Source of the DNA: a virus
DNA length: 54,560 bases
Strand: one strand, 5' to 3'
IMG/VR virus record: IMGVR_UViG_3300042485_001100
Span: 1 to 54,560 of that record
Shown here: piece by piece, positions 13,029-48,055 of the stretch
How positions within the stretch are numbered: position 1 is the stretch's first letter
Layout of the letters: each line of letters opens with the position of its first letter
The notes under the pieces: model-generated
The model's input: only the letters and a program-made list of their open reading frames with translations
Told to the model about the DNA's origin: nothing
The model's database searches: none
Position numbers and translations under genes: made by a program

Positions 13029-13868
13029 ATGTCATATAGCAATGTAGAAAAAATAGTTATTGCACCACAAATAGTCGTGTATAAAAACATATTTAAGTTT
13101 AGTCAAGAGCTCATCGATCTTCTTGAAGAAGATAGCCCTGAATCAATACTAGATCCATGGAGAGATTGGTACCAGCAAGGCATAAGAAAAGGCATGCGCT
13201 TTGATAGCGAAGTCGATTTAAATTCAGGAAGTGATTTATCAATTAAAGAAAAAAAATATTTAAAAGAAATTTATGACATAACTAATTTCATTAATAAAGA
13301 TTATTTTGATGACTTTAAGGAAAATGGAATCTGGCCAGATTTTATTTTAGATTGGGACAAACTAAATTCTATAGAGGACAAAATCTATATAGACTATTTT
13401 AAATATGAAAATAGCAAGCAGCAAAAGCTTGTAAGGCCAGAAGGTAAGCTTATGATGGAATACCACATTGATGAGTTGCCAATACCAAATGAAATTAAGA
13501 TGAGAAGACATGTCGCAACAATTAATTTTTATTTAAATAGTAATTATTCTGGCGGTGACATATGCGTGTACGATGATGTTTCTAAAAAAAGCTATAGGTA
13601 TAAGCCTATGGTAGGTGATGCAGTCATAATGCCATCTACTGAGCCTTTTTATCACGGGGTCAAGAAATATTTTGATGCGGATAGATATTTTGCAAGAACA
13701 TTTTTAGACTATGTCTCTGACGAAAACATACCTTGGAAAAGCAAATACGTAGTATACAAAGATGACAACCTTGATATGTCGGAATCTGATTATGTAGGGC
13801 AAGACCTACAAATAATAAAAATAAACACAGATGAAATTGTTGTTGGAGAAGAGCCTAACAATGTCTGA
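13029..13868 (+). CDS. 2OG-Fe(II) dioxygenase (prolyl-4-hydroxylase-like)
   Basis: 279 residues. The double-stranded beta-helix carries iron ligands H146 and D148 (MEYHIDE) and distal H209 (PFYHGV), plus R223 for 2-oxoglutarate (YFARTF). The core signature NFYLNSNYSGGDI...GDAVIMPS is typical of the P4H-like group. It lies in the recombination operon between recA and a resolvase-like gene. The substrate could be a protein side chain, nucleic acid or small molecule. First of nine such genes in the window. Confidence 0.85.
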   Translation: MSYSNVEKIVIAPQIVVYKNIFKFSQELIDLLEEDSPESILDPWRDWYQQGIRKGMRFDSEVDLNSGSDLSIKEKKYLKEIYDITNFINKDYFDDFKENGIWPDFILDWDKLNSIEDKIYIDYFKYENSKQQKLVRPEGKLMMEYHIDELPIPNEIKMRRHVATINFYLNSNYSGGDICVYDDVSKKSYRYKPMVGDAVIMPSTEPFYHGVKKYFDADRYFARTFLDYVSDENIPWKSKYVVYKDDNLDMSESDYVGQDLQIIKINTDEIVVGEEPNNV

Positions 13869-14166
13869 AAGAGCAGAAGTAAAAAGGGACGGAGCAAAGG
13901 CTCAAAAAAATTCTGGAAGAGGAGATTATCAAAAAGGAGATGCTCAGTGGAATCAGTTCTTGGTTGATTATAAAGAAGCTGGTTCAACATTTACTTTAAA
14001 TAAAGATGTTTGGGCTAAAATATGCACAGACACATTTAAGGTTAATAGAGACATGCATCCAGCTTTAAAAATAATTATAGGAAAAGAAAGCAAGGTAAGG
14101 CTTGGTATAATAGAGTGGGCAGTTTTAGAAGATCTAATAGAATTTTGGGAGAACAACCATGTATAA
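13861..14166 (+). CDS. Putative PD-(D/E)XK-type nuclease / resolvase-like protein
   Basis: 101 residues from ATG 13861, overlapping the oxygenase stop by 8 bases; an upstream in-frame start at 13831 lies inside the oxygenase gene. Basic N-terminus (RAEVKRDGAKAQKNSGRG) then GDAQWNQFLVDYKEAGSTF, in which the Asp...Asp-x-Lys spacing resembles a PD-(D/E)XK active site as in small archaeal-type Holliday junction resolvases. The RuvC-like gene nearby makes a second resolvase surprising. Assignment is pattern-based and tentative. Confidence 0.6.
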   Translation: MSERAEVKRDGAKAQKNSGRGDYQKGDAQWNQFLVDYKEAGSTFTLNKDVWAKICTDTFKVNRDMHPALKIIIGKESKVRLGIIEWAVLEDLIEFWENNHV

Positions 14167-14863
14167 AATAGACGCATATATAGATAATGCAGATGCTCCT
14201 TCAGCAAAAATAAGGCCGCTAGAAATGCAACGTGATTGGATGCATGACAATACTTATAATTGCGACCCAATTGGAATGGCCAACACATTAGGGTATGGTA
14301 TATATTTTGATGAGGACGTATCATTTATTTGGGATGGTTCCAGGGCAAACGGAGCAGTCGGAGTTGTTGGTTCAGAGCATATTTGGGTTGGAAGAGGAGA
14401 GGGAACCGTAAGCTTTGTTACTAATTTAATTCTTAGAACTGACGAAAATACTAGCGTTCTAACTATGCCAGTTCCAAATCAATCAATAGAAGGAGCGCAA
14501 GTTTTAAGCACCGTCTTATCTACCTCTGTTTTTACTGGAACATTTTCTGTTGTGTGGAAATTAGACACACCAAATAAAGAATATTTCATACCAGCTGGGA
14601 CATACATAGCGTGTATACTTCCTATCTCATTGGGTTCTATCCAAGATTCTGAGATTAATATAAAGCACAAGCCTCTTCCTTTCAACAGAATTCATGATGA
14701 TGTGGAGTATATAACTTATTTAAAGGGATTGAATGCAAAAGGAATACGCCCAAGGATGTATAAAAAAGGTATAGATCATACTGGGAAAGTAATAGGGAAA
14801 CACGAAGTAAACAAAATAAAGCTGCACGTAAACTATGAAAAGGATGTTGAAGATGGAAGATAA
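14159..14863 (+). CDS. DUF6065-like protein, first copy
   Basis: 234 residues, overlapping the previous gene by 8 bases. Features typical of DUF6065-like proteins common in aquatic phages: RDWM near the N-terminus, CDPIGMANTLGYGI, a central W-x-V-G region and FIPAGTYIACILPISLG near the C-terminus. The fold is mostly beta with a basic C-terminal tail. A diverged relative is encoded at 44104-44736. Function of the family is unknown. Confidence 0.65.
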   Translation: MYKIDAYIDNADAPSAKIRPLEMQRDWMHDNTYNCDPIGMANTLGYGIYFDEDVSFIWDGSRANGAVGVVGSEHIWVGRGEGTVSFVTNLILRTDENTSVLTMPVPNQSIEGAQVLSTVLSTSVFTGTFSVVWKLDTPNKEYFIPAGTYIACILPISLGSIQDSEINIKHKPLPFNRIHDDVEYITYLKGLNAKGIRPRMYKKGIDHTGKVIGKHEVNKIKLHVNYEKDVEDGR

Positions 14864-15188
14864 AAATACTCTACAGCTAATTAGTGATATCACTGAGTTT
14901 AATGACCTGCATGAATTTATGAAGGACGAACACTTGGACAAAGCATTAGCAATTGTGGTAAAGCTTTTAATGAACCCAGACGTTCCATCTGCAAAAGCAC
15001 CTCATCTGATAATGGAACTACAGGCTATGTCAACTAAGTTTGCTGTCCTTGCTTCAGTATATTCAACAATTGCTAAAGACAAGGCTGGTACAGAAAACAA
15101 TAACAAGAAAAACATTTACTATTCAGTGAAGGAGTCCATAGACAAGCTTGTAGATGCACTTAAATATGTCGTTAGGTACAACTCATAA
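14853..15188 (+). CDS. Helical hypothetical protein
   Basis: 111 residues from ATG 14853, which has AAGGA 9 bases upstream; the in-frame ATG at 14835 does not. Predicted all-helical with Ala/Leu/Lys-rich segments (ALAIVVKLLMN, MSTKFAVLASVYSTIAKDKAG). It ends directly before the Cas4-like nuclease start, so may be a partner of that enzyme. No family recognised. Confidence 0.7.
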   Translation: MEDKNTLQLISDITEFNDLHEFMKDEHLDKALAIVVKLLMNPDVPSAKAPHLIMELQAMSTKFAVLASVYSTIAKDKAGTENNNKKNIYYSVKESIDKLVDALKYVVRYNS

Positions 15189-15977
15189 ATGGCTAGAGAT
15201 ATTGTAAAGAACTTAAAGTTTAAAAAGCATACTGGAAACTTCTTTGACCCAGAAAAATTTGCACAACTACTTGATGAGTCTTACAGAAATACTAAGCGTC
15301 CAGATGGCGATACAACTAAAAAATCTTTTAGTCCAAGCTCACTAGGCTACGGTCACGGAACTTGCCCAAGGTACTGGTACATGGCATTTACTGGTGCGGT
15401 TTTTATTGATGATAATGACGCAGTTGCTGTGGCCAATATGGCACAGGGAACGCAGGCACATGAAAGATTACAAAACCTAATTAAGACTATGCCTGAATGG
15501 AGAGCAGAAGAAGAAGAGATAATTAATGACTATCCTCCAATTCGTGGCTTTATAGACTTGATTATGGAGTATGATGGCGAGACTGTAATTGGAGAAATTA
15601 AGACAGCCAAGCAGGAGGTTTGGGATACTAGGCAGGCGGAAATGAAGTCTTCTCCTAACCATATGCTACAGCTTCTTACATACATGAAACTAAAGAATGC
15701 TAAAGAGGGATTCTTCCTTTATGAAAATAAAAATACCCAAGAAATATTAATTATTCCAATTTCCATGAATGATAAAAATAAAGAGATTATTGAAGATGCT
15801 TTTCAATGGATGAGGGAAGTTTGGGATAACTTTCAAAATGGTTCTCTCCCAACTAGACCAGAAAATGCAACTAAGTATAAGCTACCTTGCACTTATTGCC
15901 CTGTTAAAAAAGAATGCTGGGCAAAGGGATCAGATCCTGGAGACATAACAATAGATCTAATGAAGGTCGTAAAATAA
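15189..15977 (+). CDS. Cas4-like RecB-family exonuclease with Fe-S cysteines
   Basis: 262 residues. PD-(D/E)XK motifs: H91 (AHERL), D123 (GFIDLIM), E136-x-K138 (GEIKTA) and the QLLTYM helix near 161. Four cysteines (C59 in TCPRYW; C234, C237, C243 in CTYCPVKKEC) match the 4Fe-4S arrangement of Cas4/AddB-like nucleases. It probably resects DNA ends for RecA-dependent recombination or replication. No CRISPR array or other cas gene is visible, so a CRISPR role is not supported. Confidence 0.9.
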   Translation: MARDIVKNLKFKKHTGNFFDPEKFAQLLDESYRNTKRPDGDTTKKSFSPSSLGYGHGTCPRYWYMAFTGAVFIDDNDAVAVANMAQGTQAHERLQNLIKTMPEWRAEEEEIINDYPPIRGFIDLIMEYDGETVIGEIKTAKQEVWDTRQAEMKSSPNHMLQLLTYMKLKNAKEGFFLYENKNTQEILIIPISMNDKNKEIIEDAFQWMREVWDNFQNGSLPTRPENATKYKLPCTYCPVKKECWAKGSDPGDITIDLMKVVK

Positions 15978-16986: not shown

Positions 16987-17526
16987 ATGACAGAAATAGA
17001 GCCATCAGTACATTTTGATAAAATGAATAAGGTTGTTTCCGAATTATTAAAAGGAAGCTCTGCTACTCAGATTGCCACAATAACTGGTATGACAAGAAAA
17101 GATGTTTTGGGATATATTGATGAGTGGAAGGCCGTAGTTCATAACGATACAAATGTTAGGGACCGTGCCAGAGAAGCTCTTATGGGAGCTGATCAGCACT
17201 ACGATATGCTCATTAAAGAGGCCTGGAAAACTGTAGAAGATGCAGACACTCAAGGACAGCTCAACGTAAAGTCTGGCACCCTAAAGCTAATTGCAGATAT
17301 AGAGGCAAAAAGAATTGGAATGTTACAGGCGGTTGGTGTGCTTGAAAACAATGAGATGGCATCTCAAATATTAGAAAATGAAAGAAAGCAAGAGATGCTT
17401 GTTGGAATATTAAAAGAAGTTACATCAAGCTGTAATCATTGTAAGATAGAAGTTGCTAAAAGGCTTTCACAGATAACTGGCATAGTAGAGCCAATAATAA
17501 TTTCTCAAGAGGCTGCGGATGCTTAA
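16987..17526 (+). CDS. terS: Terminase small subunit (probable)
   Basis: 179 residues. An N-terminal helix-turn-helix (SSATQIATITGMTRKDVLGYI, about residues 24-44) is followed by long helices suited to oligomerisation and a Cys-containing C-terminal part (SCNHCKIEVAKRL). It lies one gene upstream of the large subunit and heads the operon. TerS recognises the packaging site on DNA. The sequence family is not recognised directly, so context and architecture carry the call. Confidence 0.68.
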   Translation: MTEIEPSVHFDKMNKVVSELLKGSSATQIATITGMTRKDVLGYIDEWKAVVHNDTNVRDRAREALMGADQHYDMLIKEAWKTVEDADTQGQLNVKSGTLKLIADIEAKRIGMLQAVGVLENNEMASQILENERKQEMLVGILKEVTSSCNHCKIEVAKRLSQITGIVEPIIISQEAADA

Positions 17527-18118
17527 TTCAAAAGAAGCGGTCATTCTGGGAGAAGACATATATGTTTACTCTAATTTTGTAAGCCCAGAAGAATGTCAGA
17601 CAGTACTTGATTTTATTTCTTTAATACCAGAAGATGAATGGCAAGAAATACTTAACCCCATAGGTCAAGGCTATGAAATATCTTTTCGGCAGATTCCTAC
17701 ACTAAAAGAAATAAATAAAAGAATAGAGTCTATTTTAGATAACGACGTATATTTAAATAATTCTGCTGCTCCAACTAGAATGAAGCGTGGATTAATAGGA
17801 ACACATCATTCAGATAACTTTGAATTTTTAAATGTAAGAGAAGCAAATAAAAATTTAAAAGAAGGAGAAGATTTTGATTTAGCAAAAAATAACATTGCTG
17901 GTTTAATAATTTACTTTAATGATTTTGAAGGAGGAGAAATACATTACTCTAATCAAAATATAACTTATGCTCCAAAAGCTGGTGATTTATTAATACATAG
18001 CTCAGACGAGCATTGCAAGCATCAAGTTCAAGAAGTAAAAAGTGATTTTAGATACTCACACTCCGATAATCTATTTAGACTTATTAAGGTACCAAAAGGA
18101 TTTAAAAATGTCACTTGA
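17519..18118 (+). CDS. 2OG-Fe(II) dioxygenase between the terminase subunits
   Basis: 199 residues, overlapping the small subunit by 8 bases and the large subunit by 11. Iron ligands H97 and D99 (THHSDN) and H168 (CKHQV), with R178 (DFRYS) for 2-oxoglutarate. The core GLIIYFNDFEGGEI...PKAGDLLIHSS is characteristic. Coupled translation with terminase suggests a late-expressed enzyme acting on a virion or packaging component, or on DNA. Its insertion inside the terminase pair is unusual. Confidence 0.82.
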   Translation: MLNSKEAVILGEDIYVYSNFVSPEECQTVLDFISLIPEDEWQEILNPIGQGYEISFRQIPTLKEINKRIESILDNDVYLNNSAAPTRMKRGLIGTHHSDNFEFLNVREANKNLKEGEDFDLAKNNIAGLIIYFNDFEGGEIHYSNQNITYAPKAGDLLIHSSDEHCKHQVQEVKSDFRYSHSDNLFRLIKVPKGFKNVT

Positions 18119-20145: not shown

Positions 20146-21144
20146 ATGAAAGAAAATAAATTAATAGATCCGTATAAATTTTTTGTTAATGATTCTTTTA
20201 ACTGGACAAATGCCAACCTTGGATTAAAAAATGTTTCAGATTATAAACATAAAGAAAGAAGAATTAAAGAGCTAGCTTGGCTACCAGAAGGCATGGAAGA
20301 TCCTTATTTGCTTAACTCTAAAGGATATCGTTCCGATGAATTTTTAGAGACTAGGGACATGGTTTTCGCTGGATGCTCTCAAACTTTTGGAGATGGTCTT
20401 TTAAATAATGCCATATGGGGAAATATTTTATCAGAAAAAATGAACTTAAAGTCTTATAATTTAGGACTAGGAGGGATAAGCACACAATTTATAGTGCAGA
20501 ATTTAATTGGATTCTTTAAAGAATATGGAAACCCAAAGTTTCTTTTTTGTTTATTCCCAGAGTTTACAAGATTTCAGATGAAATCAAAAATTGAATTCAT
20601 GAAAAGCTTTTATGATGAAGTTAATGAGTCTGGAAGAAAAGATTACCCAGTAATGCAATTTTTAAGCACGGATAAAAATCCTAAGTATTCAAAGGCTCCT
20701 CATATAGCTGAAAACATAATACCAGAAGAGTTTATCTTCTCAATAAGCATTGATTATATAAGGATGCTAGAGTTTTATTGTAAAGCAAATAATATTGTTT
20801 TGCGTTGGGGAACCTGGAATAATTATCAAGATGAGTATATAAACAAAAATATATCTAAGATGGATTTCGAAAACTATGTTCATCTTGGAATGATAAAATG
20901 GGAGCAGGATAGATCTAATGGCAAAAGATACTTTCATGCAGATGGCAACACATGTAGAGATTTGGACAAAGAGTGTACCTCTTATGATGATTGCCATGAA
21001 GAAATTAAAGTAAAATTTGGTAAGATTTTTGACATGGCTATGGACCTAGATATTAAAAACAAGAAATCTGGACACCTGCCAGCACATGTTCAGACACACA
21101 TAGCTGAAGATTTTGAAAGGTCTTTAAACAATGATAAGAATTAA
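20146..21144 (+). CDS. SGNH/GDSL-type hydrolase, copy 1
   Basis: 332 residues. Block I FAGCSQTFGDGL (near 74-85) supplies the nucleophilic Ser in a G-x-S-x-T context, LGLGGIST gives the block II Gly, and the C-terminal HLPAHVQTHIAEDF fits block V D/H residues. The family includes esterases, acyl- and glycan-modifying enzymes. A diverged paralog is at 24981-25916 with the same start (SKGYRSDEF vs NSLGYRSKEF) and end motifs. Possible target: surface glycan acyl groups (inference). Confidence 0.75.
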   Translation: MKENKLIDPYKFFVNDSFNWTNANLGLKNVSDYKHKERRIKELAWLPEGMEDPYLLNSKGYRSDEFLETRDMVFAGCSQTFGDGLLNNAIWGNILSEKMNLKSYNLGLGGISTQFIVQNLIGFFKEYGNPKFLFCLFPEFTRFQMKSKIEFMKSFYDEVNESGRKDYPVMQFLSTDKNPKYSKAPHIAENIIPEEFIFSISIDYIRMLEFYCKANNIVLRWGTWNNYQDEYINKNISKMDFENYVHLGMIKWEQDRSNGKRYFHADGNTCRDLDKECTSYDDCHEEIKVKFGKIFDMAMDLDIKNKKSGHLPAHVQTHIAEDFERSLNNDKN

Positions 21145-21217
21145 ATACATTTTATATACTATAAAAAACAAAATATTTAAAAAGAAGAATACAAATAGAG
21201 ATAGGTTTATTTATTAA
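21131..21217 (+). CDS. Possible 28-residue basic peptide
   Basis: A short ORF starting within the last codons of the SGNH gene and stopping directly before the carbamoyltransferase ATG. Sequence is Lys/Ile/Tyr-rich (MIRIKYILYTIKNKIFKKK). It could be a translational-coupling leader or chance. No ribosome site is clear. Confidence 0.35.
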   Translation: MIRIKYILYTIKNKIFKKKNTNRDRFIY

Positions 21218-22666
21218 ATGACAATAATACTAGGGATCAATGAGACCTCCCATGATGCCTCAGTGTCTTTAATTAAAGATGGCCACATACTATTTGCGGG
21301 ACATTCAGAAAGATATAGCAAGCAAAAAAATGACTGGTACGTAAACGATTTGCTTATTAAGGACGCCTTGTCATATGGCATGCCTGATCAGATAGCCTAC
21401 TACGAGAAACCGCTTCTAAAGGCCTCCAGGCTATTTATAAAGGGTGGTACAGGGGACTGGAAGCCAAAATTTAAACTGCCTGGCGTCCCAGTAAAATCAT
21501 TTACCCATCACTATTCTCATGCATGTGCTGGATATTATACAAGCAAATTTGATGATGCTGTTATAGTAGTCCTTGATGCAATTGGAGAATATAATACCTC
21601 AACTATTTGGGCTGGAGAAAAAGAAGAAATTAAACTTAAGTACAAGCAAAACTACCCAGTGAGCTTTGGATTATTTTATTCAGCTTTTACTAAGCTTATA
21701 GGTTTGATGCCTAACCAAGAAGAATATATAATGATGGGCATGGCCGCTTATGGAGATTGGGCTAAGTATTATAAGAAGGTAAACTCTTATTTCCCATCCC
21801 ATGACAAACAAAAATATAATTTTCATAAAGGAATAACTGATTGGGGGCCAGTCACTACAGATCAGGATAAGTTTGACATAGCAGCAGCGGCACAAATTGT
21901 TTATGAGCAAAGGCTTAATGATTTTATGCGTATGGCAAAATCACTTACTGGTAAAGATAATTTAGTTTTTATGGGTGGATGTGCATTAAACTCTTCGGCC
22001 AATACATTGCTATGGAAAATATTCAAAGACATTTGGATAATGCCAAACCCAGGAGACGCTGGCTCTTCATTGGGAGCAGCAGCCGCACTTTATGGTAAGC
22101 ACATAGAATGGGAGACTCCGTATTTAGGATATGACATGGGAGGGGAGTATCCAATAAATGAGATACTTGCAGAAATAAAAACAAACAAGATAGCTGCAGT
22201 GGCAACTGGACGAGCTGAGTACGGACCAAGAGCTTTAGGCAATAGAAGCATATTAGCAGATCCCAGAGATCCAAACATTAAAGACAAAGTGAACTTAATT
22301 AAACAAAGAGAATCCTTTAGGCCTTTTGCTCCAGTGGTACTTGAAGAATTTGCAAGCGAGTGGTTTGATATGGATTTTGTATCTCCTTATATGCAGTATA
22401 CAGTTAAATGTAAGCAACCAGACAAAATACCTTCAGTTGTTCATAAAGATGGAACATCTAGAGTTCAAACCGTAAATAGAGATCAGCATCCAGGATTGCA
22501 CATGCTTTTAAGAAAATGGTATTGGGAAACTGGATGTCCAGTTTTATTAAATACAAGCTTAAACATAAAGGGTCAGCCTTTATTGAATGACAAACAAGAC
22601 GCTATTGACTGGCAGGCATACTATAGGTATAATATACTAACAGGTGCTAGTAGCTCAGTTGGTTAG
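21218..22666 (+). CDS. NodU/CmcH/TobZ-type O-carbamoyltransferase
   Basis: 482 residues. The N-terminal Kae1-like domain has LGINETSHDASVSLI and the metal-binding HHYSHA; the middle contains MGGCALNSSAN and NPGDAGSSLG; the YrdC-like C-terminal domain carries GRAEYGPRALGNRSILADPR and LNTSLNIKGQP. Members transfer a carbamoyl group from carbamoyl phosphate to hydroxyls of sugars or nodulation factors, so glycan or modified-nucleotide substrates are possible. The C-terminus is shorter than usual, and its last 23 bases run into tRNA-Met. Confidence 0.9.
   Translation: MTIILGINETSHDASVSLIKDGHILFAGHSERYSKQKNDWYVNDLLIKDALSYGMPDQIAYYEKPLLKASRLFIKGGTGDWKPKFKLPGVPVKSFTHHYSHACAGYYTSKFDDAVIVVLDAIGEYNTSTIWAGEKEEIKLKYKQNYPVSFGLFYSAFTKLIGLMPNQEEYIMMGMAAYGDWAKYYKKVNSYFPSHDKQKYNFHKGITDWGPVTTDQDKFDIAAAAQIVYEQRLNDFMRMAKSLTGKDNLVFMGGCALNSSANTLLWKIFKDIWIMPNPGDAGSSLGAAAALYGKHIEWETPYLGYDMGGEYPINEILAEIKTNKIAAVATGRAEYGPRALGNRSILADPRDPNIKDKVNLIKQRESFRPFAPVVLEEFASEWFDMDFVSPYMQYTVKCKQPDKIPSVVHKDGTSRVQTVNRDQHPGLHMLLRKWYWETGCPVLLNTSLNIKGQPLLNDKQDAIDWQAYYRYNILTGASSSVG
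22604..22633 (+). promoter_or_regulatory. Promoter TTGACT-18-TATAAT for the tRNA-Met/tRNA-Arg pair
   Basis: TTGACT (22604-22609), 18-base spacer, TATAAT (22628-22633), 10 bases before the tRNA-Met 5' end. It lies within the 3' end of the carbamoyltransferase gene. Confidence 0.68.
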
Positions 22667-22717
22667 AGCCCCAAACTCATAATTTGGTCGTCGTAGGTTC
22701 GAGTCCTACCTGGCACA
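22644..22717 (+). tRNA. tRNA-Met (CAT anticodon)
   Basis: Cloverleaf: acceptor GTGCTAG/CTGGCAC, D-arm GCTC...GAGC, anticodon stem CCAAA/TTTGG with loop CTCATAA (anticodon CAT), T-arm GTAGG-TTCGAGT-CCTAC, discriminator A. No encoded CCA. The first acceptor pair is G-C and the anticodon stem lacks three G-C pairs, so elongator Met (or a lysidine-modified Ile) rather than initiator. Its 5' end overlaps the carbamoyltransferase ORF by 23 bases. Confidence 0.9.
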
Positions 22718-22721
22718 CAAA

Positions 22722-22794
22722 GCCTTTGTAGCTCAGGGGATAGAGCAGCAGGTTTCTACCCTGCGTGTCGGAGGTTCGATTCCTTCCAGGGGCA
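22722..22794 (+). tRNA. tRNA-Arg (TCT anticodon)
   Basis: Acceptor GCCTTTG/CAGGGGC (with G-T pairs), anticodon stem GCAGG/CCTGC, loop TTTCTAC (anticodon TCT), T-arm GGAGG-TTCGATT-CCTTC, discriminator A. It reads AGA, a frequent Arg codon in this AT-rich genome that would be rarer in a host of higher GC. Confidence 0.9.
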
Positions 22795-22820
22795 CAAATA
22801 AAAAAATAAGGAGATGTAAA

Positions 22821-23228: not shown

Positions 23229-23258
23229 TTGCATAACTATCTAAGTAAATGGTATAAT
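23229..23258 (+). promoter_or_regulatory. Promoter TTGCAT-18-TGG-TATAAT ahead of hsp20
   Basis: -35 TTGCAT (23229-23234), 18-base spacer, -10 TATAAT (23253-23258) with TGG. Predicted start near 23265. Confidence 0.65.
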
Positions 23259-23264
23259 TATTTA

Positions 23265-23287: not shown

Positions 23288-23315
23288 CATATTACTTGCT
23301 TAAAAGGAGAATAAA

Positions 23316-23732: not shown

Positions 23733-23782
23733 CATCGAGACCTGGGTACGTCCAAAAACTGCCCTCTAACAGGAAGATTGAT

Positions 23783-37645: not shown

Positions 37646-38453
37646 ACTTTATTTTTTGCATGTTCCTAAAACAGCTGGCAAGAGTGTATCTTACGAATTA
37701 AAATCAGAGCTAGAAAAAAATAACATTTCAACATATATCAGTACACAATACCCTAATGAAAATCCGATATCTGACGAAGTTTATATTTCTGGACATTTTG
37801 GGACCTACCCAATAGAAAAATTTCCAGGCATATCTGTAGCATGTTTGATCAGAAATCCAATAGAGGCTAGGGTATCCTACTTTAATTTTATTCATGGAAG
37901 AAATGATTTGGACACGCCAAGATATAGATCAATAGATAGCTATTTAGAAAAGCTAAAGTACTACTTGTTTGAAGATGAAGGATTTTTTGAACATAATAAT
38001 TATCAATCTAGGCATATCTGTAACCCTACAGATGAATTAGTATTTCAAAGTGACCACCAGTTTGAAAAAAATATAAACGATATTACTAATAAATATAACT
38101 TCAAGATGGGCGAGGCCTTTAATTGGTTTATTAAAAATGATAACACCTCTTTTGAAAATGCAAAAAATAGAATAGAGTCCTTTGACATTGTAAACACAGT
38201 AGACTCAATATCTTCTTATTACACTGCAATATCTAAATGGTTTAAGAACAGACATGGGATTGACATAGCCTTAAACTCAAAAAATATTACAAACTCATCT
38301 AATACGCTTTATAAAGGAAAGATTTACACTACCCAGGATCTAATCGGGATGCTAACAAATCATGAAAAAGAAAAGGTATTAGAAAATAATGAAATAGATT
38401 ACAAAATATATTCTATTATAAGAGAAAGAGAAATTAATGAAAAGCAGAATTGA
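37632..38453 (+). CDS. Sulfotransferase-family protein
   Basis: 273 residues. FLHVPKTAGKSV (8-19) matches the 5'-phosphosulfate loop of carbohydrate sulfotransferases; ISGHFGTYP and CLIRNPIEARVSYF (71-84) match the 3'-phosphate-binding region. Uses PAPS to sulfate glycans, proteins or small molecules. No signal or membrane segment, so cytoplasmic. The phage also encodes an APS-kinase-like enzyme (23783). Acceptor unknown. Confidence 0.8.
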   Translation: MNNNRLYFLHVPKTAGKSVSYELKSELEKNNISTYISTQYPNENPISDEVYISGHFGTYPIEKFPGISVACLIRNPIEARVSYFNFIHGRNDLDTPRYRSIDSYLEKLKYYLFEDEGFFEHNNYQSRHICNPTDELVFQSDHQFEKNINDITNKYNFKMGEAFNWFIKNDNTSFENAKNRIESFDIVNTVDSISSYYTAISKWFKNRHGIDIALNSKNITNSSNTLYKGKIYTTQDLIGMLTNHEKEKVLENNEIDYKIYSIIREREINEKQN

Positions 38454-39582
38454 TTTTAACTTTAATTTTTTTAAAGAGTTTGATGTATTAGACTTAAAGA
38501 ATACAGTTGAGAAGTTTTCTACTGAGTGGGATATTGATATTTCTAGACAAAGCACTGTCTATGAAGGAAGACCTAATCCACATGTAAATACTCACACGTA
38601 CATAATACAAGATTCTTCTTTGTATTGGGACAAAGGCACTTTATTTTCAAAAGAAATTAAAGACCAAGAGATTATTTATACATTTAGTCACATAGTAAAA
38701 GAATTAGAAGAAAGAATGGCTGGTCAGTCTGCAAGAATGCTTTTAATAAAGCTGGATGCAAACAGTGAAGTTTTTACACATAAAGACAGCGGAGATTATC
38801 TTTCTAACGTAAGAAGATTTCATATCCCAATTATTACAAATGATAAAGTTTATTACACTGTAGGCGGGGAAAAAATACATATGAAGCAAGGCGAATGCTA
38901 TGAGATAAATAATTTAAAGCTGCATAGCGTAAATAATGATAGTGAATATGATAGGGTTCACCTTTTAATAGACATTATGCCAGACTCTGAAGTAAAAACA
39001 ATTAGTAGAGCACCAGAAGATCTCAGGGTCCTTGTGATAAAAAATTTTATAGATGAAGAAGATGCTGATTTACTTTCAGATTACATACAAAAAAATTGCT
39101 TGGATACTAAAAAGTTCTACATGCCTCAAAAGGCAATAGATAATAATAGGATTAGATATGAGTCACAAATACCAGAAAGGCATGAATTTTCTAGCCACCC
39201 AGAAATTCTGCATTTATTTAAAAAATATTCGGATAAGTTTTTGCTAGAATGCAAAAATTTTTTTGAAGACTCAGATGATCTGTATTTAGCAGCTCAATGG
39301 CTAACTATGCTAGGTACTGATACTAGACTGCCAGGACATGCAGATAACCACGAAGGTGCTGAGCATTTATTCAGAAGCGGAGTAATTTACCTGAATGAGG
39401 AGTTCGATGGCGGTTATCTTAGATTTACAAAAAAGGATTTATCAATAAATCCAGAAAAATTAAGTATTGTTATTTTTGAGTCTCCAGAAGTACATGAGAT
39501 AACAAGGGTTATTTCTGGGACAAGAATTGCAATGCCTATATGGGCAACAAATATAAAAGAAAAGGGGATACAGCATGGATAA
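38437..39582 (+). CDS. Double-domain 2OG-Fe(II) dioxygenase (Asp/Asn hydroxylase-like plus P4H-like)
   Basis: 381 residues with two complete active sites. Domain 1 (about 1-182) is aspartyl/asparaginyl beta-hydroxylase-like: H115-x-D117 (FTHKDSG), RRFHIPI, distal H163 (KLHSV), R173. Domain 2 (about 193-381) is P4H-like: H301-x-D303 (GHADNH), GVIYLNEEFDGGYL, distal H353 (EVHEI), R363 (GTRIAMP). A natural fusion of two dioxygenases suggests sequential modification of one target. It overlaps the next dioxygenase by 8 bases. Confidence 0.85.
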   Translation: MKSRIDFNFNFFKEFDVLDLKNTVEKFSTEWDIDISRQSTVYEGRPNPHVNTHTYIIQDSSLYWDKGTLFSKEIKDQEIIYTFSHIVKELEERMAGQSARMLLIKLDANSEVFTHKDSGDYLSNVRRFHIPIITNDKVYYTVGGEKIHMKQGECYEINNLKLHSVNNDSEYDRVHLLIDIMPDSEVKTISRAPEDLRVLVIKNFIDEEDADLLSDYIQKNCLDTKKFYMPQKAIDNNRIRYESQIPERHEFSSHPEILHLFKKYSDKFLLECKNFFEDSDDLYLAAQWLTMLGTDTRLPGHADNHEGAEHLFRSGVIYLNEEFDGGYLRFTKKDLSINPEKLSIVIFESPEVHEITRVISGTRIAMPIWATNIKEKGIQHG

Positions 39583-40231
39583 TTTAAAAATAATTAAGGA
39601 ATTTATAGATAAAGAGGACACTAATTTTTTTATAAATTGGATAGATGAAAATGCTTCAGACACATCTAGATTTAGACATAGAATAGGTGTGGCCTTCAAC
39701 AAGGGACTTGCTGTCAGAGCAGTATTTCCAGATGAAAAGCCAGCAACTCTTTTTAAGGACATAGAAGATATCTGTATGAAATATGCAAACAAATTTATGG
39801 AAAATTGTAACTCTCTTTTCCCATCGGATAAGCCTCAGTATTTTTATGGCTTTTCTTTAACTAGATTGAGCACAGATATTCAATTAAGAGTTCACCAAGA
39901 CGTGCATGGAGAGTTTGCATCTCTGTCATATAGCGGAGTTTTATACCTTAATGATGATTACGAGGGCGGAGAAGCAAGCTTCCTTGAGGAGTTTACCCCT
40001 GAATCATTTTTCCCACTATATGAAGACTCAATGGGAGGAGTATGCATAAAACCAGACGCTGGCGATCTATCGCTATTCCCAGCCAGTTTATGGCATGGAG
40101 GCAAAAGAATTACATCTGGAAATAAGTACGCAATAATTTTTTGGGCAACATCAGATGAAACAAGAGGTTTTGAAGGATTTGATTCTGATCGTGTTCTAAA
40201 CTTAATTAATTATAAGCCAGTATCAGACTAG
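39575..40231 (+). CDS. 2OG-Fe(II) dioxygenase
   Basis: 218 residues. H107-x-D109 (VHQDVH), GVLYLNDDYEGGEASF, distal H174 (LWHGG); the basic 2-oxoglutarate ligand appears to be K184 rather than Arg. N-terminal DNLKIIKEFIDKEDTNF repeats the start of domain 2 of the previous protein (LRVLVIKNFIDEEDADL), so the two are related by duplication. Confidence 0.84.
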   Translation: MDNLKIIKEFIDKEDTNFFINWIDENASDTSRFRHRIGVAFNKGLAVRAVFPDEKPATLFKDIEDICMKYANKFMENCNSLFPSDKPQYFYGFSLTRLSTDIQLRVHQDVHGEFASLSYSGVLYLNDDYEGGEASFLEEFTPESFFPLYEDSMGGVCIKPDAGDLSLFPASLWHGGKRITSGNKYAIIFWATSDETRGFEGFDSDRVLNLINYKPVSD

Positions 40232-40348: not shown

Positions 40349-40421
40349 GTTCCTATAGCTCAGCTGGTAGAGCAGCAGACTTTTAATCTGCGGGTCGATG
40401 GTTCGATACCATCTGGGGACA
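40349..40421 (+). tRNA. tRNA-Lys (TTT anticodon)
   Basis: Acceptor GTTCCTA/TGGGGAC, anticodon stem GCAGA/TCTGC, loop CTTTTAA (TTT), T-arm GATGG-TTCGATA-CCATC, discriminator A. One base after tRNA-Asn. Confidence 0.92.
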
Positions 40422-40451
40422 CACGTGCAACATAAACTATATAGGAGAAAA

Positions 40452-40988
40452 ATGAAGACAGTAGGAAACAAGATAGGAAACTTTTCTGTAGTTGGCGTTA
40501 AGCCAGGCGCATTAAGTTATGAAGACAGCTCTTTTGAAGTAATAAATCAAGACTCTTTCCCTGGAAAGTGGAAGATCATTGTTTTTTATCCAAAAGACTT
40601 TACTTTTGTTTGTCCAACAGAGATTGTTGCGTATGATGCATTAGTAAATGATTTTAACGATAGAGATGCTGTGCTTATGACTGGTTCAGTTGACAACGAA
40701 TTTTGTAAAGTTGCATGGCGTAACTCACATGATGATCTACGTAAGACTAATTCTTGGTCATTTGCAGATACAGGCCACCAGCTAGCAAACGATCTTGGAG
40801 TACATCACTCGTCTGGGGTTACATATCGTGCTACATTTATTATTGATCCAGAAAATACAATTCAGCATGTGACTGTAAACAATTTAGATGTTGGCAGAAA
40901 CCCAGATGAAACTCTTCGTGTACTGGACGCACTTCAAACAGGAGAGCTGTGTGCCTGCAATAGATCTTTGGGCGGAGAAACTTTATAA
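40452..40988 (+). CDS. ahpC: Peroxiredoxin (AhpC)
   Basis: 178 residues from ATG 40452 with TAGGAG upstream. Peroxidatic C54 in FTFVCPTE; resolving Cys at C167/C169 (ELCACNR). Actinobacterial AhpC lacks the AhpF partner and is reduced by AhpD, which is encoded next in a TAATG overlap. It lowers hydrogen peroxide and organic peroxides. The in-frame start at 40398 lies in tRNA-Lys and is rejected. Confidence 0.93.
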   Translation: MKTVGNKIGNFSVVGVKPGALSYEDSSFEVINQDSFPGKWKIIVFYPKDFTFVCPTEIVAYDALVNDFNDRDAVLMTGSVDNEFCKVAWRNSHDDLRKTNSWSFADTGHQLANDLGVHHSSGVTYRATFIIDPENTIQHVTVNNLDVGRNPDETLRVLDALQTGELCACNRSLGGETL

Positions 40989-41500
40989 TGACATGGGTAG
41001 ACCAACTTAAGGATTCTATTCCAGAATATGCTAAAGATATCAAGTTAAACCTTGACGCCGTAATCAATAGATCATCTGTTGATGCAGAGCATGCTACGTA
41101 TATTTCAATAGCAGCAGCATTCGCAACTGGCAATGGAAAGTTGCTTGCCTTTATTACTGCTAATGCAAGCGATGAAGTTGAAAAAAATGCCGCTCTTACT
41201 GCTGGGGCTATCATGGCACAAAATAACGTTTGGTATCCATTTATTGAAATGGCTGATGACGTAAATTTAAAGGGGCTACCAGCTCAATTAAGAATGAATG
41301 CTATTACTTCTCACGGAGGTACAACTAAAGGTAAGTTTGAAGCTTATTCGTTAGCATCATCCATTGTTGGCAAGTGTCATTTTTGTGTTAAAGCACATTA
41401 TGAAACATTAAAAGAAGAAGGATATAGTGTAGAACAGTTGCGTGATATCGGAAGAATTGCAGCAACAATTAATGCATTATCCAAGATACTTTCAGCATGA
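40988..41500 (+). CDS. ahpD: Alkylhydroperoxidase AhpD
   Basis: 170 residues. CHFCVKAH gives the AhpD motif C130-x2-C133-x3-H137. All-helical carboxymuconolactone-decarboxylase-like fold. It reduces AhpC, normally through lipoamide systems. Coupled start overlaps the ahpC stop. Confidence 0.92.
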   Translation: MTWVDQLKDSIPEYAKDIKLNLDAVINRSSVDAEHATYISIAAAFATGNGKLLAFITANASDEVEKNAALTAGAIMAQNNVWYPFIEMADDVNLKGLPAQLRMNAITSHGGTTKGKFEAYSLASSIVGKCHFCVKAHYETLKEEGYSVEQLRDIGRIAATINALSKILSA

Positions 41501-42509: not shown

Positions 42510-42630
42510 ATTATTAATTTGTAATTTTATTGGTCATAGACTTCAGAGCGCTGGCTCTTGCCCATTTACTGGTAAATCTTATAATGTATGTAATAGATGC
42601 AATAAAACTATAGAGGCAAATAATGAATAA
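42502..42630 (+). CDS. 42-residue zinc-type mini-protein
   Basis: TTG 42502 with GGAG 7 bases upstream, overlapping both neighbours by 8 bases. Pattern LLICNFIGHRL ... CPFTGKSYNVCNRC: a His plus three to four Cys, a likely zinc site. Confidence 0.6.
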   Translation: MFKLLICNFIGHRLQSAGSCPFTGKSYNVCNRCNKTIEANNE

Positions 42631-43198
42631 AGCAATTAATAAGAAAAATGGAATATGGGAATGGCATAACGTTTTAGAAAATCCAAATGAATTGGTAACA
42701 AATATCCCAAATGATAGATGGGAATATTATACTAATAAAGGTGGCGGAGAAACAATTATTGGTAGAGCCACCAAAATTTTTAAAGGTGAATTTTTGCATT
42801 CTAAGGCAATAAAGCCATTCATTGAATGTGTGGAAGAATATTCTGCTTGCAATGGATTAAGCTTTAAAGAAGAAAACATAGGCAAAGACTGGCTTCTGGT
42901 AAGAGAATATAATACTGGATCTAAAATGTCAGCACATAACGATGCATATAGCTATGTAAAAAAAGATGGTCAACCAGTAAAACCATCTTTAACTGCAATA
43001 CTTTACATAAATGATGATTATACTGGAGGAGAAATTGATTTTATACATGATGATCTAAAAATAAAACCTAAATCTGGATCAATGGTAATTTTCCCAAGCG
43101 ACAAACATCACGAAGTATTAGAAATATTAAGCGGTAACAGATACATGACGCAGACCTATGTTTATGAGCATCCAGCTTCTTTTTACGATAAAGAGTAA
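42623..43198 (+). CDS. 2OG-Fe(II) dioxygenase
   Basis: 191 residues. H105-x-D107 (SAHNDAY), AILYINDDYTGGEIDF, distal H163 (DKHHEV), R173 (GNRYMT). Full DSBH core. More similar by eye to prolyl hydroxylase-like members than to the 45-48 kb group. Confidence 0.84.
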   Translation: MNKAINKKNGIWEWHNVLENPNELVTNIPNDRWEYYTNKGGGETIIGRATKIFKGEFLHSKAIKPFIECVEEYSACNGLSFKEENIGKDWLLVREYNTGSKMSAHNDAYSYVKKDGQPVKPSLTAILYINDDYTGGEIDFIHDDLKIKPKSGSMVIFPSDKHHEVLEILSGNRYMTQTYVYEHPASFYDKE

Positions 43199-43594: not shown

Positions 43595-43634
43595 TTATAT
43601 ATGAGGCAGTTTGCCCACATACGGAAGGATTATT

Positions 43635-44096
43635 ATGTCATTATACGATTATAGCTTTACTGATAACAACGGTAACGAAGTAAGTTTATCACAGTTTAAA
43701 GATAAGGTTTTGTTGCTAGTAAATGTTGCAAGTAACTGTGGTTTTACTACACAGTATGAGGGGCTTCAGGCAATAAGCAAAAAGTATGCTGATAATGGAG
43801 TTGTAGTAATTGGATTTCCATGTAATCAATTTAATTCCCAAGAGCCTGGCACCGACGAAGAGATCAAAGATTTTTGTACAAAGAACTACGGTGTAGACTT
43901 TTTAATGTCGACAAAGATTGATGTAAATGGGGATAACGCACACTCCATATTTAAGCATTTACTTTCTGAATCAAAGGTGGAAGATGTTCCATGGAACTTT
44001 ACTAAATTTATTGTTAGTGAAGATTCAGTCAAATTCCTGCCACCACATTCTACAGCAGAAGAAGTAGAAATTGAGTTATTAACAATTTTAAAGTAG
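43635..44096 (+). CDS. Glutathione peroxidase-family peroxidase
   Basis: 153 residues from ATG 43635. Peroxidatic Cys C35 in NVASNCGFTTQ, Gln in FPCNQF, Trp/Asn in PWNFTKF: the complete Gpx tetrad. Bacterial Cys-type Gpx usually uses thioredoxin, which the phage also encodes (33929). Confidence 0.9.
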   Translation: MSLYDYSFTDNNGNEVSLSQFKDKVLLLVNVASNCGFTTQYEGLQAISKKYADNGVVVIGFPCNQFNSQEPGTDEEIKDFCTKNYGVDFLMSTKIDVNGDNAHSIFKHLLSESKVEDVPWNFTKFIVSEDSVKFLPPHSTAEEVEIELLTILK

Positions 44097-44103: not shown

Positions 44104-44736
44104 TTGCCAAATCGTGTAATAAAGTATGAATCTTTTGGATACGACACAGTATTCCCAGCTAAAAAATTTATACCAGATTGGTATAAAAATAATACCTTTG
44201 ATAATTTAAAAAAGTGTATTCCTTTTTTAGATGCTTTTATGTCAGGCTACATCCTAGCATTGCCCTATGATATATCTGTGTCTTTACTTAATGGCAAACC
44301 AGAAATAAAATTAACAGACGGAACCATATATAATGGATCAACTAGGGATGTGCAAAGCGTAAACGTAGTACCCTTTAAGCATTACGATGTAGAGTTTGCA
44401 TGGGATTTGTGTACTGCACTAACCATACCTTCTGGGTCAAGTATTTTGTTTACTCATCCTTTAAATAGACATGATCTTCCATTCACAACACTTAGCGCAG
44501 TAATAGATGGAGAGTTTACATTAGTGCCTCATGGAGCAATACCATTTTATATAAAAGAAGGCTTTGAAGGCATAATAAAAGCTGGGACCCCAGTAGCCCA
44601 ATTAGTCCCGTTTGCACAAGAAACTTGGAAAGCCGAAATAGAAATAGGATTATTTAAGAATTCAAAAAAAAATCGTAGATCAATGCCTAAGAATTGGTAT
44701 AGAAAAAGTTCATGGAAAAAGAAAAGCTATGATTAA
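44104..44736 (+). CDS. DUF6065-like protein, second copy
   Basis: 210 residues from TTG 44104. PAKKFIPDWYKN, MSGYILALPYDISVSL, TIPSGSSILFTHPLNR, GIIKAGTPVAQLVPFAQETW: the recurring layout of DUF6065-like proteins in aquatic phages. The basic C-terminus (NRRSMPKNWYRKSSWKKKS) may bind nucleic acid. Related to the 14159 protein. Confidence 0.75.
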   Translation: MPNRVIKYESFGYDTVFPAKKFIPDWYKNNTFDNLKKCIPFLDAFMSGYILALPYDISVSLLNGKPEIKLTDGTIYNGSTRDVQSVNVVPFKHYDVEFAWDLCTALTIPSGSSILFTHPLNRHDLPFTTLSAVIDGEFTLVPHGAIPFYIKEGFEGIIKAGTPVAQLVPFAQETWKAEIEIGLFKNSKKNRRSMPKNWYRKSSWKKKSYD

Positions 44737-45436: not shown

Positions 45437-46012
45437 ATGACATTAAAAGAAGAGCCAGTTATGCTGGCTGCCAACGTTATGCTATTTCCAAATGATATAA
45501 CGGATCCAGAAAGTGTTGTTGAAGCTGTAAGTTTAAAAGAATGGTCTCATAAATTAAAACAAAATGGCGAAAGCTTAGGATACTCATGCTTTATTGACAA
45601 AAATTCTGATCCAGAGATATCTAAAGACTTATCAGAAAAATGCTTTAATGCTGCCAAAATATTTTTATCTAAAACTAATCGCAATATATCAGACTACAAT
45701 AATCCAGTAGAGTCATTCATGTTTGTCAAGTACCCTGAATCTGGAGCAAAACATATGAGCTCTCACCCAGATAGGTGGCTTGATGAAAACGGTAAAGAGG
45801 TTATCCCAGACATAACAATCCTGTTGTATTTAACTAGTGATTATGAGGGAGGCAATTTAAATTTTGATGACTTAGATATACACATTAAGCCAGCGGCTGG
45901 TAATATAGTTATCTTTGATTCAAGTTTAAACCACTCTGTAGACGCCATATTAGGCGGAAGAAGAATAAACACTCAGATGTTTTTATTCAAGAATAAAGAA
46001 ATGGTACAATAA
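45437..46012 (+). CDS. 2OG-Fe(II) dioxygenase, tandem family member 1
   Basis: 191 residues. H110-x-D112 (SSHPDRW), LLYLTSDYEGGNLNF, distal H166 (LNHSV), R175/R176 (GGRRINTQ). Shares ISDYxxxxxxFxFxxxxxW, YLTSDYEGG and LGGRR with the genes at 46919 and 47495. Confidence 0.85.
   Translation: MTLKEEPVMLAANVMLFPNDITDPESVVEAVSLKEWSHKLKQNGESLGYSCFIDKNSDPEISKDLSEKCFNAAKIFLSKTNRNISDYNNPVESFMFVKYPESGAKHMSSHPDRWLDENGKEVIPDITILLYLTSDYEGGNLNFDDLDIHIKPAAGNIVIFDSSLNHSVDAILGGRRINTQMFLFKNKEMVQ
46005..46010 (+). promoter_or_regulatory. -10 TACAAT, leaderless
   Basis: TGG-TACAAT overlaps the oxygenase stop codon; 6 bases then ATG 46017. Confidence 0.5.
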
Positions 46013-46265: not shown

Positions 46266-46357
46266 TGGGCATACTAGACAACCTTGAAGCGTATATTGAT
46301 TTGGGAGACATTAAAGACTTAGATCTATCTGAAGATATAGATAAAGAAGAATTGTAA
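46265..46357 (+). CDS. 30-residue acidic peptide
   Basis: TAATG overlaps at both ends. Asp/Leu/Ile-rich (LEAYIDLGDIKDLDLSEDI). Coupled between two genes; no family recognised. Confidence 0.55.
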   Translation: MGILDNLEAYIDLGDIKDLDLSEDIDKEEL

Positions 46358-46938
46358 TGAAGATTGAAACAAGGCTGGGAGACAAAGGTCTTTATATTAC
46401 GGATTGTGTAGATCAAGAACATTTAGATAAGATATTCGAGCTGGAAAGTACCCTAAGACCAATTGAACAGATTCATTTCTTTAGGACTTCCTTTAACTTG
46501 TCAGATAATGAATTGAATACTTATCTAATTAAAAATATTAATTCTGCTATCCTAGAGTACCTAACCGATTCTAACAAAGATAGGTCAGAGTATATCGCAA
46601 GGAACTCTTACGCTATGTCTCATTGGATGTTGAATAAGAGGCTTAACCCGCACATTGATACAATTAAATACGATCACGAAGACACACATACCCCTAGATC
46701 TATTATCAATGCCTTACTATACTTAACTGATGATTATGATGGAGGAGAAATATTTTTTCCAGAGTTAGACATAGCTATAAAGCCTAAAGCTGGATCCGTG
46801 GTAGTATTTGATTCAGACCTTGAGCATGGAGTCAACGAAGTAAAAAGAGGGACCAGAAAGACACTGGAGTCTAATCTTTTTAGCATATACTCAGAAGACA
46901 TAGAAGAGGTAAAGGCTCATGGCTGGAGATCAATCTAA
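46357..46938 (+). CDS. 2OG-Fe(II) dioxygenase
   Basis: 193 residues. H99-x-D101 (NPHIDTI), ALLYLTDDYDGGEIFF, distal H157 (LEHGV), R167 (GTRKTL). Same DSBH core, but the N-terminal half differs from its tandem neighbours. Overlaps the next gene by 20 bases. Confidence 0.84.
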   Translation: MKIETRLGDKGLYITDCVDQEHLDKIFELESTLRPIEQIHFFRTSFNLSDNELNTYLIKNINSAILEYLTDSNKDRSEYIARNSYAMSHWMLNKRLNPHIDTIKYDHEDTHTPRSIINALLYLTDDYDGGEIFFPELDIAIKPKAGSVVVFDSDLEHGVNEVKRGTRKTLESNLFSIYSEDIEEVKAHGWRSI

Positions 46939-47476
46939 TAGATTTAATATTGTAGAGCAGATAGAGTCACGTGCAATGCATCTATCAAACTGCTTAGATG
47001 ATATAGAAAAAATTGTACCTGATATAGAATCAGGTAAGTGGACAAAAGATACTGACCCAGTAGCCGTAGGCTCGTTGGGGTTTATAGAGTCAGATGAGCC
47101 ATGGTACAAAGAAATACACGATGCCATGGAACATGCCACAGAAATATTTTTATCTAATACTGGAAGAGACATCTCAGACTACACACATCAGTTTAATTTT
47201 CACAGAATAGTTCGCTGGGAAACCAAGAATAAACCTATAACAGAACACAAAGATGTGTGGGATCCTAAAGGAGACGAAAAGATACCAGCCCTTACTTTAG
47301 TTATGTATTTAACTTCTGACTATGAGGGAGGAATATTTAGGTTCCCATTGTTAAACAAGGCAATTAAGCCATTGGCTGGGGACATAATAATATTTAATTC
47401 TGACACAGTACATGCGATAGATGAATATTTAGGCGGCAGAAGAATGACTATCAGAAGATTCTTATTCAAGAAATAA
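46919..47476 (+). CDS. 2OG-Fe(II) dioxygenase, tandem family member 2
   Basis: 185 residues. H110-x-D112 (TEHKDVW), MYLTSDYEGGIFRF, distal H165 (TVHAI), R174 (LGGRRMTIRRF). Clearly duplicated with the 47495 gene: shared NIVEKI/NIVEQI start, MHLSNCL/MHISNCL and identical LGGRRMTI. Confidence 0.86.
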   Translation: MAGDQSNRFNIVEQIESRAMHLSNCLDDIEKIVPDIESGKWTKDTDPVAVGSLGFIESDEPWYKEIHDAMEHATEIFLSNTGRDISDYTHQFNFHRIVRWETKNKPITEHKDVWDPKGDEKIPALTLVMYLTSDYEGGIFRFPLLNKAIKPLAGDIIIFNSDTVHAIDEYLGGRRMTIRRFLFKK

Positions 47477-47482
47477 AGAGAG

Positions 47483-47488
47483 TATACT
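47483..47488 (+). promoter_or_regulatory. -10 TATACT, leaderless
   Basis: Six bases before ATG 47495. -35 poor. Confidence 0.5.
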
Positions 47489-47494
47489 TAAAAT

Positions 47495-48055
47495 ATGAGC
47501 AGTTTCAACATTGTAGAAAAGATAGATTCTTCCCTAATGCATATTTCAAACTGCTTAGAAGAACCAGAAAAGCTTTTATCTGCCTTAGAGTCTAAAACTT
47601 GGAAGAAGGATCTTGGAATAGATACAACCATTGGTTCTTTTTGTATGATTAGAGAACCAGAACCAGAATACGATCAAATATTTGATGTTATGAGAAAAGC
47701 GGCGGCAGTATTTTTATCCAACACAGATAGGGATATTTCAGACTACGCAGAAAAGTACACCTTCCATAGAGTAGTTAGATGGGAAAAGGAATCAAGCACC
47801 CTTGTACAACACCTAGATAGATGGGTAACCAAGGGAGAACAAATAACACCAGAGATAACCTTGGTTATGTATTTGACAGATGATTATGAAGGCGGAGAGG
47901 TTTACTTCAGCTCCTTTGACAAAAAGATTAAGCCTTCAGCTGGGGACATCCTAGCATTTAATTCCAATACCTTACATGGCACTGAGCCTTATTTAGGTGG
48001 AAGAAGAATGACTATTCAGTTCTTCTTATTTAAAAAGCAACCAGATAATGCCTAA
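47495..48055 (+). CDS. 2OG-Fe(II) dioxygenase, tandem family member 3
   Basis: 186 residues. H106-x-D108 (VQHLDRW), MYLTDDYEGGEVYF, distal H161 (TLHGT), R170 (LGGRRMTIQFF). Closest paralog of the preceding gene. All iron and 2-oxoglutarate ligands are retained, so both duplicates look active. Confidence 0.86.
   Translation: MSSFNIVEKIDSSLMHISNCLEEPEKLLSALESKTWKKDLGIDTTIGSFCMIREPEPEYDQIFDVMRKAAAVFLSNTDRDISDYAEKYTFHRVVRWEKESSTLVQHLDRWVTKGEQITPEITLVMYLTDDYEGGEVYFSSFDKKIKPSAGDILAFNSNTLHGTEPYLGGRRMTIQFFLFKKQPDNA

Follow-up and report, generated by a model that had tools for sequence, protein, structure and literature searches.

Prolyl-hydroxylase-like oxygenase genes in a phage genome fragment and their linkage, in related phages, to a proline-repeat tail-type protein

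Introduction

Genes for 2-oxoglutarate (2OG)-Fe(II) oxygenases are common in aquatic phages, and their purpose is unsettled. The IMG/VR virus record IMGVR_UViG_3300042485_001100, which comes from a freshwater phage and is analyzed here over its 54,560 bases (the window), raises the question in a concentrated form: nine genes spanning positions 13029-48055 encode ten such domains. What might so many oxygenases of one phage act on? An earlier note on this DNA had seen in them a marked expansion kept by selection for distinct targets. By following these genes into related phages, we found that similar genes stand in a compact cassette directly downstream of a tail-type protein with FxPPxF repeats, a linkage that names a specific substrate candidate. 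We lean, with some reserve, towards reading the enzymes as phage prolyl-hydroxylase-like proteins, some of which act on proline-repeat tail proteins. The oxygenase family and its multiplicity in phages were already known; the linkage to the fn3-FxPP repeat protein is what appears to be new here.

Results

All nine open reading frames (ORFs) were recovered at exactly the coordinates given in the earlier note. Pfam placed PF13640 above its gathering score in every one of them, and PF05118 in the N-terminal half of the gene at 38437, which confirms the count of ten domains; a clade-specific hidden Markov model found no further PF13640-type gene in the window. When the nine PF13640 domains were aligned to the model, each displayed the ligands H, D and H followed by Arg (eight domains) or Lys (39575) as the basic 2OG ligand, 10 residues past the distal His. 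The claim of intact ligands in all copies thus holds by model alignment for nine domains, and for the PF05118 domain by reading of an H-K-D motif and a later H. The genes, named by their start positions, are listed below with the ratio of nonsynonymous to synonymous substitution rates (dN/dS) against relatives.

13029-13868, plus strand: 2OG-Fe(II) oxygenase PF13640, downstream of recA; Pfam 35.3 bits; ligands H,D,H,R; dN/dS 0.13-0.14
17519-18118, plus strand: 2OG-Fe(II) oxygenase PF13640; 29.1 bits; ligands H,D,H,R; dN/dS 0.17-0.25
38608-38979, plus strand: first domain of 38437, Asp/Asn beta-hydroxylase type PF05118 (Asp_Arg_Hydrox); 54 bits against a cut-off of 22.6
39310-39546, plus strand: second domain of 38437, PF13640; 38.8 bits; ligands H,D,H,R; whole-gene dN/dS 0.11-0.15
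39575-40231, plus strand: 2OG-Fe(II) oxygenase PF13640 with Lys as 2OG ligand; 36.1 bits; ligands H,D,H,K; dN/dS 0.09-0.10
42623-43198, plus strand: 2OG-Fe(II) oxygenase PF13640; 49.5 bits; ligands H,D,H,R; dN/dS 0.10-0.20
45437-46012, plus strand: 2OG-Fe(II) oxygenase PF13640, candidate tandem-duplicate group; 35.6 bits; ligands H,D,H,R; tree support 0.99
46357-46938, plus strand: 2OG-Fe(II) oxygenase PF13640, candidate tandem-duplicate group; 49.4 bits; structure modelled; dN/dS about 0.06, synonymous rate (dS) saturated
46919-47476, plus strand: 2OG-Fe(II) oxygenase PF13640, candidate tandem-duplicate group; 33.4 bits; ligands H,D,H,R; dN/dS 0.28
47495-48055, plus strand: 2OG-Fe(II) oxygenase PF13640, candidate tandem-duplicate group; 41.7 bits; ligands H,D,H,R; 69% identical in G029; dS saturated

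Searches of the PDB with a 50-sequence profile returned the Bacillus anthracis prolyl 4-hydroxylase (P4H) first (2.9e-14), followed by prolyl 3-hydroxylase 1 (P3H1), PKHD-type hydroxylases, the P4H of chlorella virus PBCV-1 and an algal P4H. A structural model of 46357 (mean predicted local distance difference test score, pLDDT, 87.5) gave a fold search led by P4H structures, with 5v7y as top match, and aligned with the PBCV-1 enzyme vCPH at template modelling (TM) scores of 0.71/0.76. The C-terminal part of 38437, the better modelled portion of that protein, also has vCPH among its fold matches; the N-terminal half modelled poorly and is placed by its PF05118 domain together with a weak similarity to the L-proline cis-4-hydroxylase 4p7w (E 0.0014). 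For the two domains modelled, 46357 and the second domain of 38437, the models bear out the double-stranded beta-helix fold. Lys is the 2OG ligand in collagen, algal and viral P4H, and Arg in PHD-type enzymes; among 121 domains of the relatives, Arg occupies the position in 85 and Lys in 33. Collectively, profile and model data place the nine PF13640 domains nearest the prolyl-hydroxylase branch of the 2OG-Fe(II) oxygenases, with a putative activity of that kind, and the tenth domain is predicted to be of the AspH/proline-hydroxylase type. Structural likeness of phage 2OG enzymes to a human prolyl hydroxylase has been reported previously (PMC12774648).

In relatives of the window, five to eight 2OG genes directly follow the gene for an fn3 protein of tail type that carries FxPPxF repeats, and they stand next to a gene encoding a DUF6065 protein. 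In G027 and G016, for example, an fn3 protein whose repeats read FFAPPGFF or FFPPFFPP is followed immediately by six 2OG genes, which lie between tail genes and the portal gene and are accompanied by DUF6065 and a phrog_7084-type protein. In the fn3 protein of locus L323, matches to tail families come through the fn3 part. The linkage was seen in both search directions. Among loci with at least 8.5 kb upstream of the portal gene, 26 contain three or more 2OG genes together with the repeat, 26 contain neither, none has the repeat alone and three have the genes alone; these last three stretches break off within the cassette or shortly before it, and for one of them (L247, contig G030) the repeat protein is encoded further upstream on the contig. 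Dereplication of the portal loci at 97% identity leaves 14, 17, 0 and 3 loci in the same classes (Fisher 1e-6), a statistic that treats related phages as partly independent. Conversely, a DNA pattern for FxPPxFFxPPxFF scanned across all of IMG/VR returned at least 120 stretches, and all 50 of the records tested carry PF13640 (46 over the cut-off); downstream of the repeat ORF, the distance to the nearest oxygenase gene is usually 24-1300 bases, and DUF6065 is found nearby. For IMG/VR contigs with collagen-like GPTGPT repeats the figure was 4 of 50, a base rate rather than a matched control, as that set spans other habitats and lineages.

Three repeat-bearing phages, G063 (106 kb), G068 (98 kb) and G085 (205 kb), have no homolog of the window terminase and share few genes with G029 or G027 (10 of 87, 10 of 75 and 21 of 193, respectively). 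Even so, both oxygenase types recur in them along with DUF6065 and the repeat protein. The fn3-FxPP/2OG/DUF6065 module thus appears to move as a unit. Neither an fn3-FxPP protein from the cassette nor the window's DUF6065 protein had a match among 50,697 annotated phage records, and we found no description of the linkage in the open-licence papers searched.

Other repeat proteins were considered as linked substrates and set aside. The window itself encodes at 25973-28057 a secreted-looking protein with a PA14 domain and TPEPTPEPSPEP repeats; these Thr/Ser-Pro (PT) repeats are retained in G034, which has no 2OG gene in 95.6 kb. Collagen-like tail repeats were rejected on the low IMG/VR count given above and on several relatives with GPTGPT/GPQGPQ repeats that have no 2OG gene near the portal.

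Additional features of the relatives' tail regions deserve mention. Many of the fn3 proteins, including L189:451-2115, L179:430-2112 and G027_19622, have a Cys-starting domain after the FxPP repeats (CIPADTEVLT...DI...GD); a Hint-like identity suggested by eye had no support from Pfam, PHROGs or PDB searches. One portal-linked locus (L153:1419-3722) has a single 2OG gene and a tail-region protein with PVTPPVTPP repeats in place of FxPP. G027 also contains a second tail-linked 2OG cluster (G027_52839-58640, L091), where three more 2OG genes and a glycosyltransferase-like gene (by reading) lie directly downstream of a 1043-amino-acid tail-fibre-like protein.

The window is tied to this cassette through its closest kin. 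All eight relatives that have portals 89-96% identical to that of G003 and enough upstream sequence carry a five-gene 2OG cassette and the repeat protein; G003 and the window share 96% identity in the terminase. An FxPP-repeat protein beside 2OG genes is likewise present in the near-complete sibling G029 (113,108 bases; RecA and AhpD each 98% identical to those of the window). Since the nearest relatives carry the cassette, we predict that the genome from which the window derives probably has one outside the fragment. The window also repeats parts of the cassette's toolkit, with DUF6065 near 13029 and a phrog_7084-type protein among the right-hand genes, and pairs a sulfotransferase-like gene with the AspH-like domain that follows it, as does L205.

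14159-14863, plus strand: DUF6065 protein (PF19541); Pfam 67.3 bits; orthologs in nine close relatives
37632-38453, plus strand: sulfotransferase-like gene, directly upstream of 38437; by reading, resembles L205:107-811; 78% identical in G029
44104-44736, plus strand: phrog_7084 protein; PHROGs 6.8e-22; homologs in G016, G018 and G027, and also in the relatives' tail cassette

In the relatives, DUF6065 constantly accompanies 2OG genes and belongs to the tail cassette. The sulfotransferase-like gene of the window has no Pfam match of its own, and L205:107-811 matches Sulfotransfer_2 just under the cut-off. We regard the window's ten domains as additional members of this gene set: one recA-linked, one terminase-linked, and a right-hand cluster that is partly tandem-duplicated.

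Seven of the nine window genes could be compared with relatives at dN/dS values of 0.06-0.28, in agreement with the earlier suggestion of selection on intact copies; synonymous sites are near saturation in several genes (dS about 2.7 for 46357). An ortholog of 47495 is present with saturated dS and so yields no ratio, and none was found for 45437 in the relatives searched. Because RecA and the terminase have ratios of 0.02 and 0.03, the 2OG copies are, judged by substitution rates, maintained less strictly than core genes. Random decay in relatives, which the earlier note had named as contrary evidence, was not what the compared contigs displayed: all four ligands are kept in 114 of 121 domains; among the remaining seven, two seem genuinely degenerate (the second domain of G027_260, and G031_43408) and five have a ligand column that falls outside the alignment. 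A domain tree, built on a short alignment with FastTree supports, joins 45437, 46919 and 47495 (0.99) with 46357 near them (0.80), consistent with an origin of these four genes by tandem duplication, and groups 13029 (0.89) and 39575 (0.97) with a tail-cassette type. The notion that each copy has a distinct target is only partly right, because the four right-hand genes look like tandem duplicates and may share one. L310 and L311, which are related to the region around 46357, again show a tandem-like arrangement, about five 2OG domains being packed into 8-9 kb.

The number of copies is well above chance and deserves the term marked expansion, with precedent both in the window's own clade and in cyanophage. 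Across related records the counts run from 0 to the 18 domains that G027 packs into 86 kb, and the 113 kb of G029 contain 14 genes of the PF13640 type, among them orthologs of 13029, 17519, 38437, 39575, 42623, 46919 and 47495. None was found in Kenrey, a complete Streptomyces phage relative, or in several relatives of 80-96 kb. Cyanophage S-SCSM1 is reported to have 24 ORFs of the superfamily (PMC9602691), which together with G027 rules out a record for the window; with the method used for the window, S-SCSM1 gave 13 PF13640 hits in 229 kb. Multiplicity of 2OG genes in phages is therefore not new, and the window is denser than S-SCSM1.

The terminase of the window is 63% identical to that of Kenrey (Stanwilliamsviridae, complete, 129,554 bases), and the two share a replication gene order of metallophosphoesterase, DnaB helicase, primase, DNA-binding protein, DnaE polymerase, RecA-like recombinase and terminase. 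On these grounds the window is probably a fragment, about half of a large-phage genome akin to Streptomyces Stanwilliamsviridae; one tail-fibre gene lies at its left end, and most of the structural module is absent from it. Terminase kinship points to a host among the actinobacteria. The AhpD gene was tried as a host marker and rejected: its nearest bacterial relatives are mostly Burkholderiales (up to 59%), too distant to decide. Gene 17519 sits between an upstream ORF and the gene for the terminase large subunit, whose start it overlaps. For the region 18042-18118, homologs align from residue 22-23 of the terminase ORF, so that the true start is probably near 18108, overlapping the end of 17519.

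Other window genes were noted in passing. Oxidative-stress genes are interleaved with the 2OG genes (33929-34231, 40398-41500 and 43611-44096), the set comprising thioredoxin-like (by reading), AhpC-like, AhpD-like and glutathione-peroxidase genes. Within 20146-25916, a NodU-like carbamoyltransferase (21218) stands between two similar proteins (20146 and 24981) that have no family match and are SGNH-hydrolase-like by reading. A secreted subtilase-like protease (phrog_3677) with a long AAAEAAAK repeat tail is encoded at 32552-33730.

Discussion

The earlier note had left protein hydroxylation, nucleic acid modification and 2OG consumption side by side as roles for these enzymes. Protein hydroxylation is favored, because the nearest structures are prolyl hydroxylases and because the genes are tightly linked in relatives to a proline-repeat, tail-type protein. 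In the mechanism that we consider somewhat more probable than its alternatives taken together, 2OG, O2 and Fe(II) would occupy the H-x-D...H...R/K site, and hydroxylation would fall on a substrate residue that is most likely a proline in a protein. The cassette enzymes would hydroxylate the FxPPxF repeats while virions are made, and the hydroxylated repeats could alter a tail appendage in contact with the host. The ten domains of the window would probably hydroxylate the same or other phage or host proteins. We infer the catalytic activity, the modified residue, the place in the virion and the targets of the window's own copies. More tentatively, at a level of belief that falls short of an even one, we propose a transferable system for making a tail appendage rich in hydroxyproline, and perhaps decorated further, out of FxPPxF repeats; it would consist of several enzymes of the prolyl-hydroxylase type together with DUF6065 and, in some cases, a sulfotransferase-like partner.

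Several observations weigh against prolyl hydroxylation of tail repeats. There is no FxPP-repeat protein inside the window, and its ten domains are tied to the substrate via relatives alone. When portals are clustered at 84% (nine clusters), the association between repeat and genes is no longer significant. The 62-kb fragment G014 encodes an FxPP tail protein, and PF13640 genes are absent from the part covered; the protein (G014_38220-40865, minus strand; L131-L132) is tail-fibre-like with FFPPFFPP repeats, and could be a counterexample to the linkage. The proposal does not account for as many as five to eight enzymes for each repeat protein. Finally, related enzymes hydroxylate other residues, and position in a profile ranking is no proof of the substrate residue.

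The strongest competing explanation, which we judge unlikely but worth keeping in view, is that the enzymes act on host or intracellular phage proteins, for example elongation factor Tu (EF-Tu) as bacterial prolyl hydroxylases do, and that the tail linkage reflects co-transfer of accessory neighbors. EF-Tu is the substrate of 5v7y, the prolyl 4-hydroxylase that tops the fold matches, and the window copies have host-interaction genes (AhpC, AhpD, glutathione peroxidase, thioredoxin) as neighbors and no repeat protein beside them. However, hitch-hiking should break more often than is seen, given a linkage to one repeat type that holds in both search directions and also in phages without this terminase.

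Decoration of a small molecule, glycan or capsule would draw on the NodU-like carbamoyltransferase, its two similar flanking proteins and the sulfotransferase-like gene. Such neighbors do exist in the window, and a cyanophage cluster of carbamoyltransferases and 2OG enzymes has been proposed to serve secondary metabolite or capsule decoration (PMC7824862). Carbamoyltransferase 21218, however, adjoins no 2OG gene, and none was seen among the genes read in the relatives' tail cassette, so that we find this explanation improbable. Less probable again is a main role in consuming 2OG, thereby shifting host nitrogen metabolism or making succinate, as proposed for cyanophages (PMC3037559), for it does not explain why the enzymes are so diverse, why they are linked to one repeat protein and why repeat-less relatives mostly lack the genes. 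Modification of DNA or RNA bases by TET/JBP- or AlkB-like activity is the least credible of the four, for the weak Tet_JBP similarity of 46357 (3.7e-7), at 30.0 bits the best such score, lies below the cut-off of 34.9, TET- and AlkB-like structures rank far below prolyl hydroxylases in the PDB profile search, and no cytosine-C5 DNA methylase (PF00145) occurs in the window or six relatives (host enzymes could still supply one), even though PHROGs places related families under DNA metabolism.

If the transferable system proposed above is real, these phages would possess a bacterial-virus counterpart of hydroxyproline-rich proteins, and viral prolyl hydroxylases would gain a concrete substrate; a 2022 survey stated that how viruses utilise prolyl 4-hydroxylase 'remains cryptic' (PMC9301287). 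The linkage suggests hydroxylation of virions as a trait that recurs in aquatic phages and can pass between them, and prolyl hydroxylation of virions becomes checkable by mass spectrometry.

Comparison with known systems

Cyanophage 2OG-Fe(II) oxygenases (phrog_61, phrog_81; S-SCSM1) belong to the same families as those of the window and show the same kind of multiplicity, but at much lower density and with no substrate link reported. Streptomyces phages of the Stanwilliamsviridae, such as Kenrey and Gilson, share the terminase and replication order, whereas Kenrey has no PF13640 gene. The Bacillus anthracis P4H (3itq, 5hv0, 5v7y), the best profile and fold match of the window enzymes, is a bacterial protein of about 20% identity that modifies EF-Tu according to the title of 5v7y. 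Another close system is vCPH of chlorella virus PBCV-1 (PDB 5c5t), a viral enzyme with the same fold as 46357. Its peptide substrates reportedly match virus-encoded proline-rich repeats, and its 2OG ligand is Lys. Two later papers cite it as a viral P4H with characterised peptide substrates (Eriksson 1999, cited in PMC9301287, PMC12333218). By analogy, the phage system resembles this case of a viral P4H with peptide substrates, with the difference that vCPH is a single enzyme of an algal virus, its activity shown, whereas here many bacteriophage paralogs, putative in activity, mostly have Arg as the 2OG ligand.

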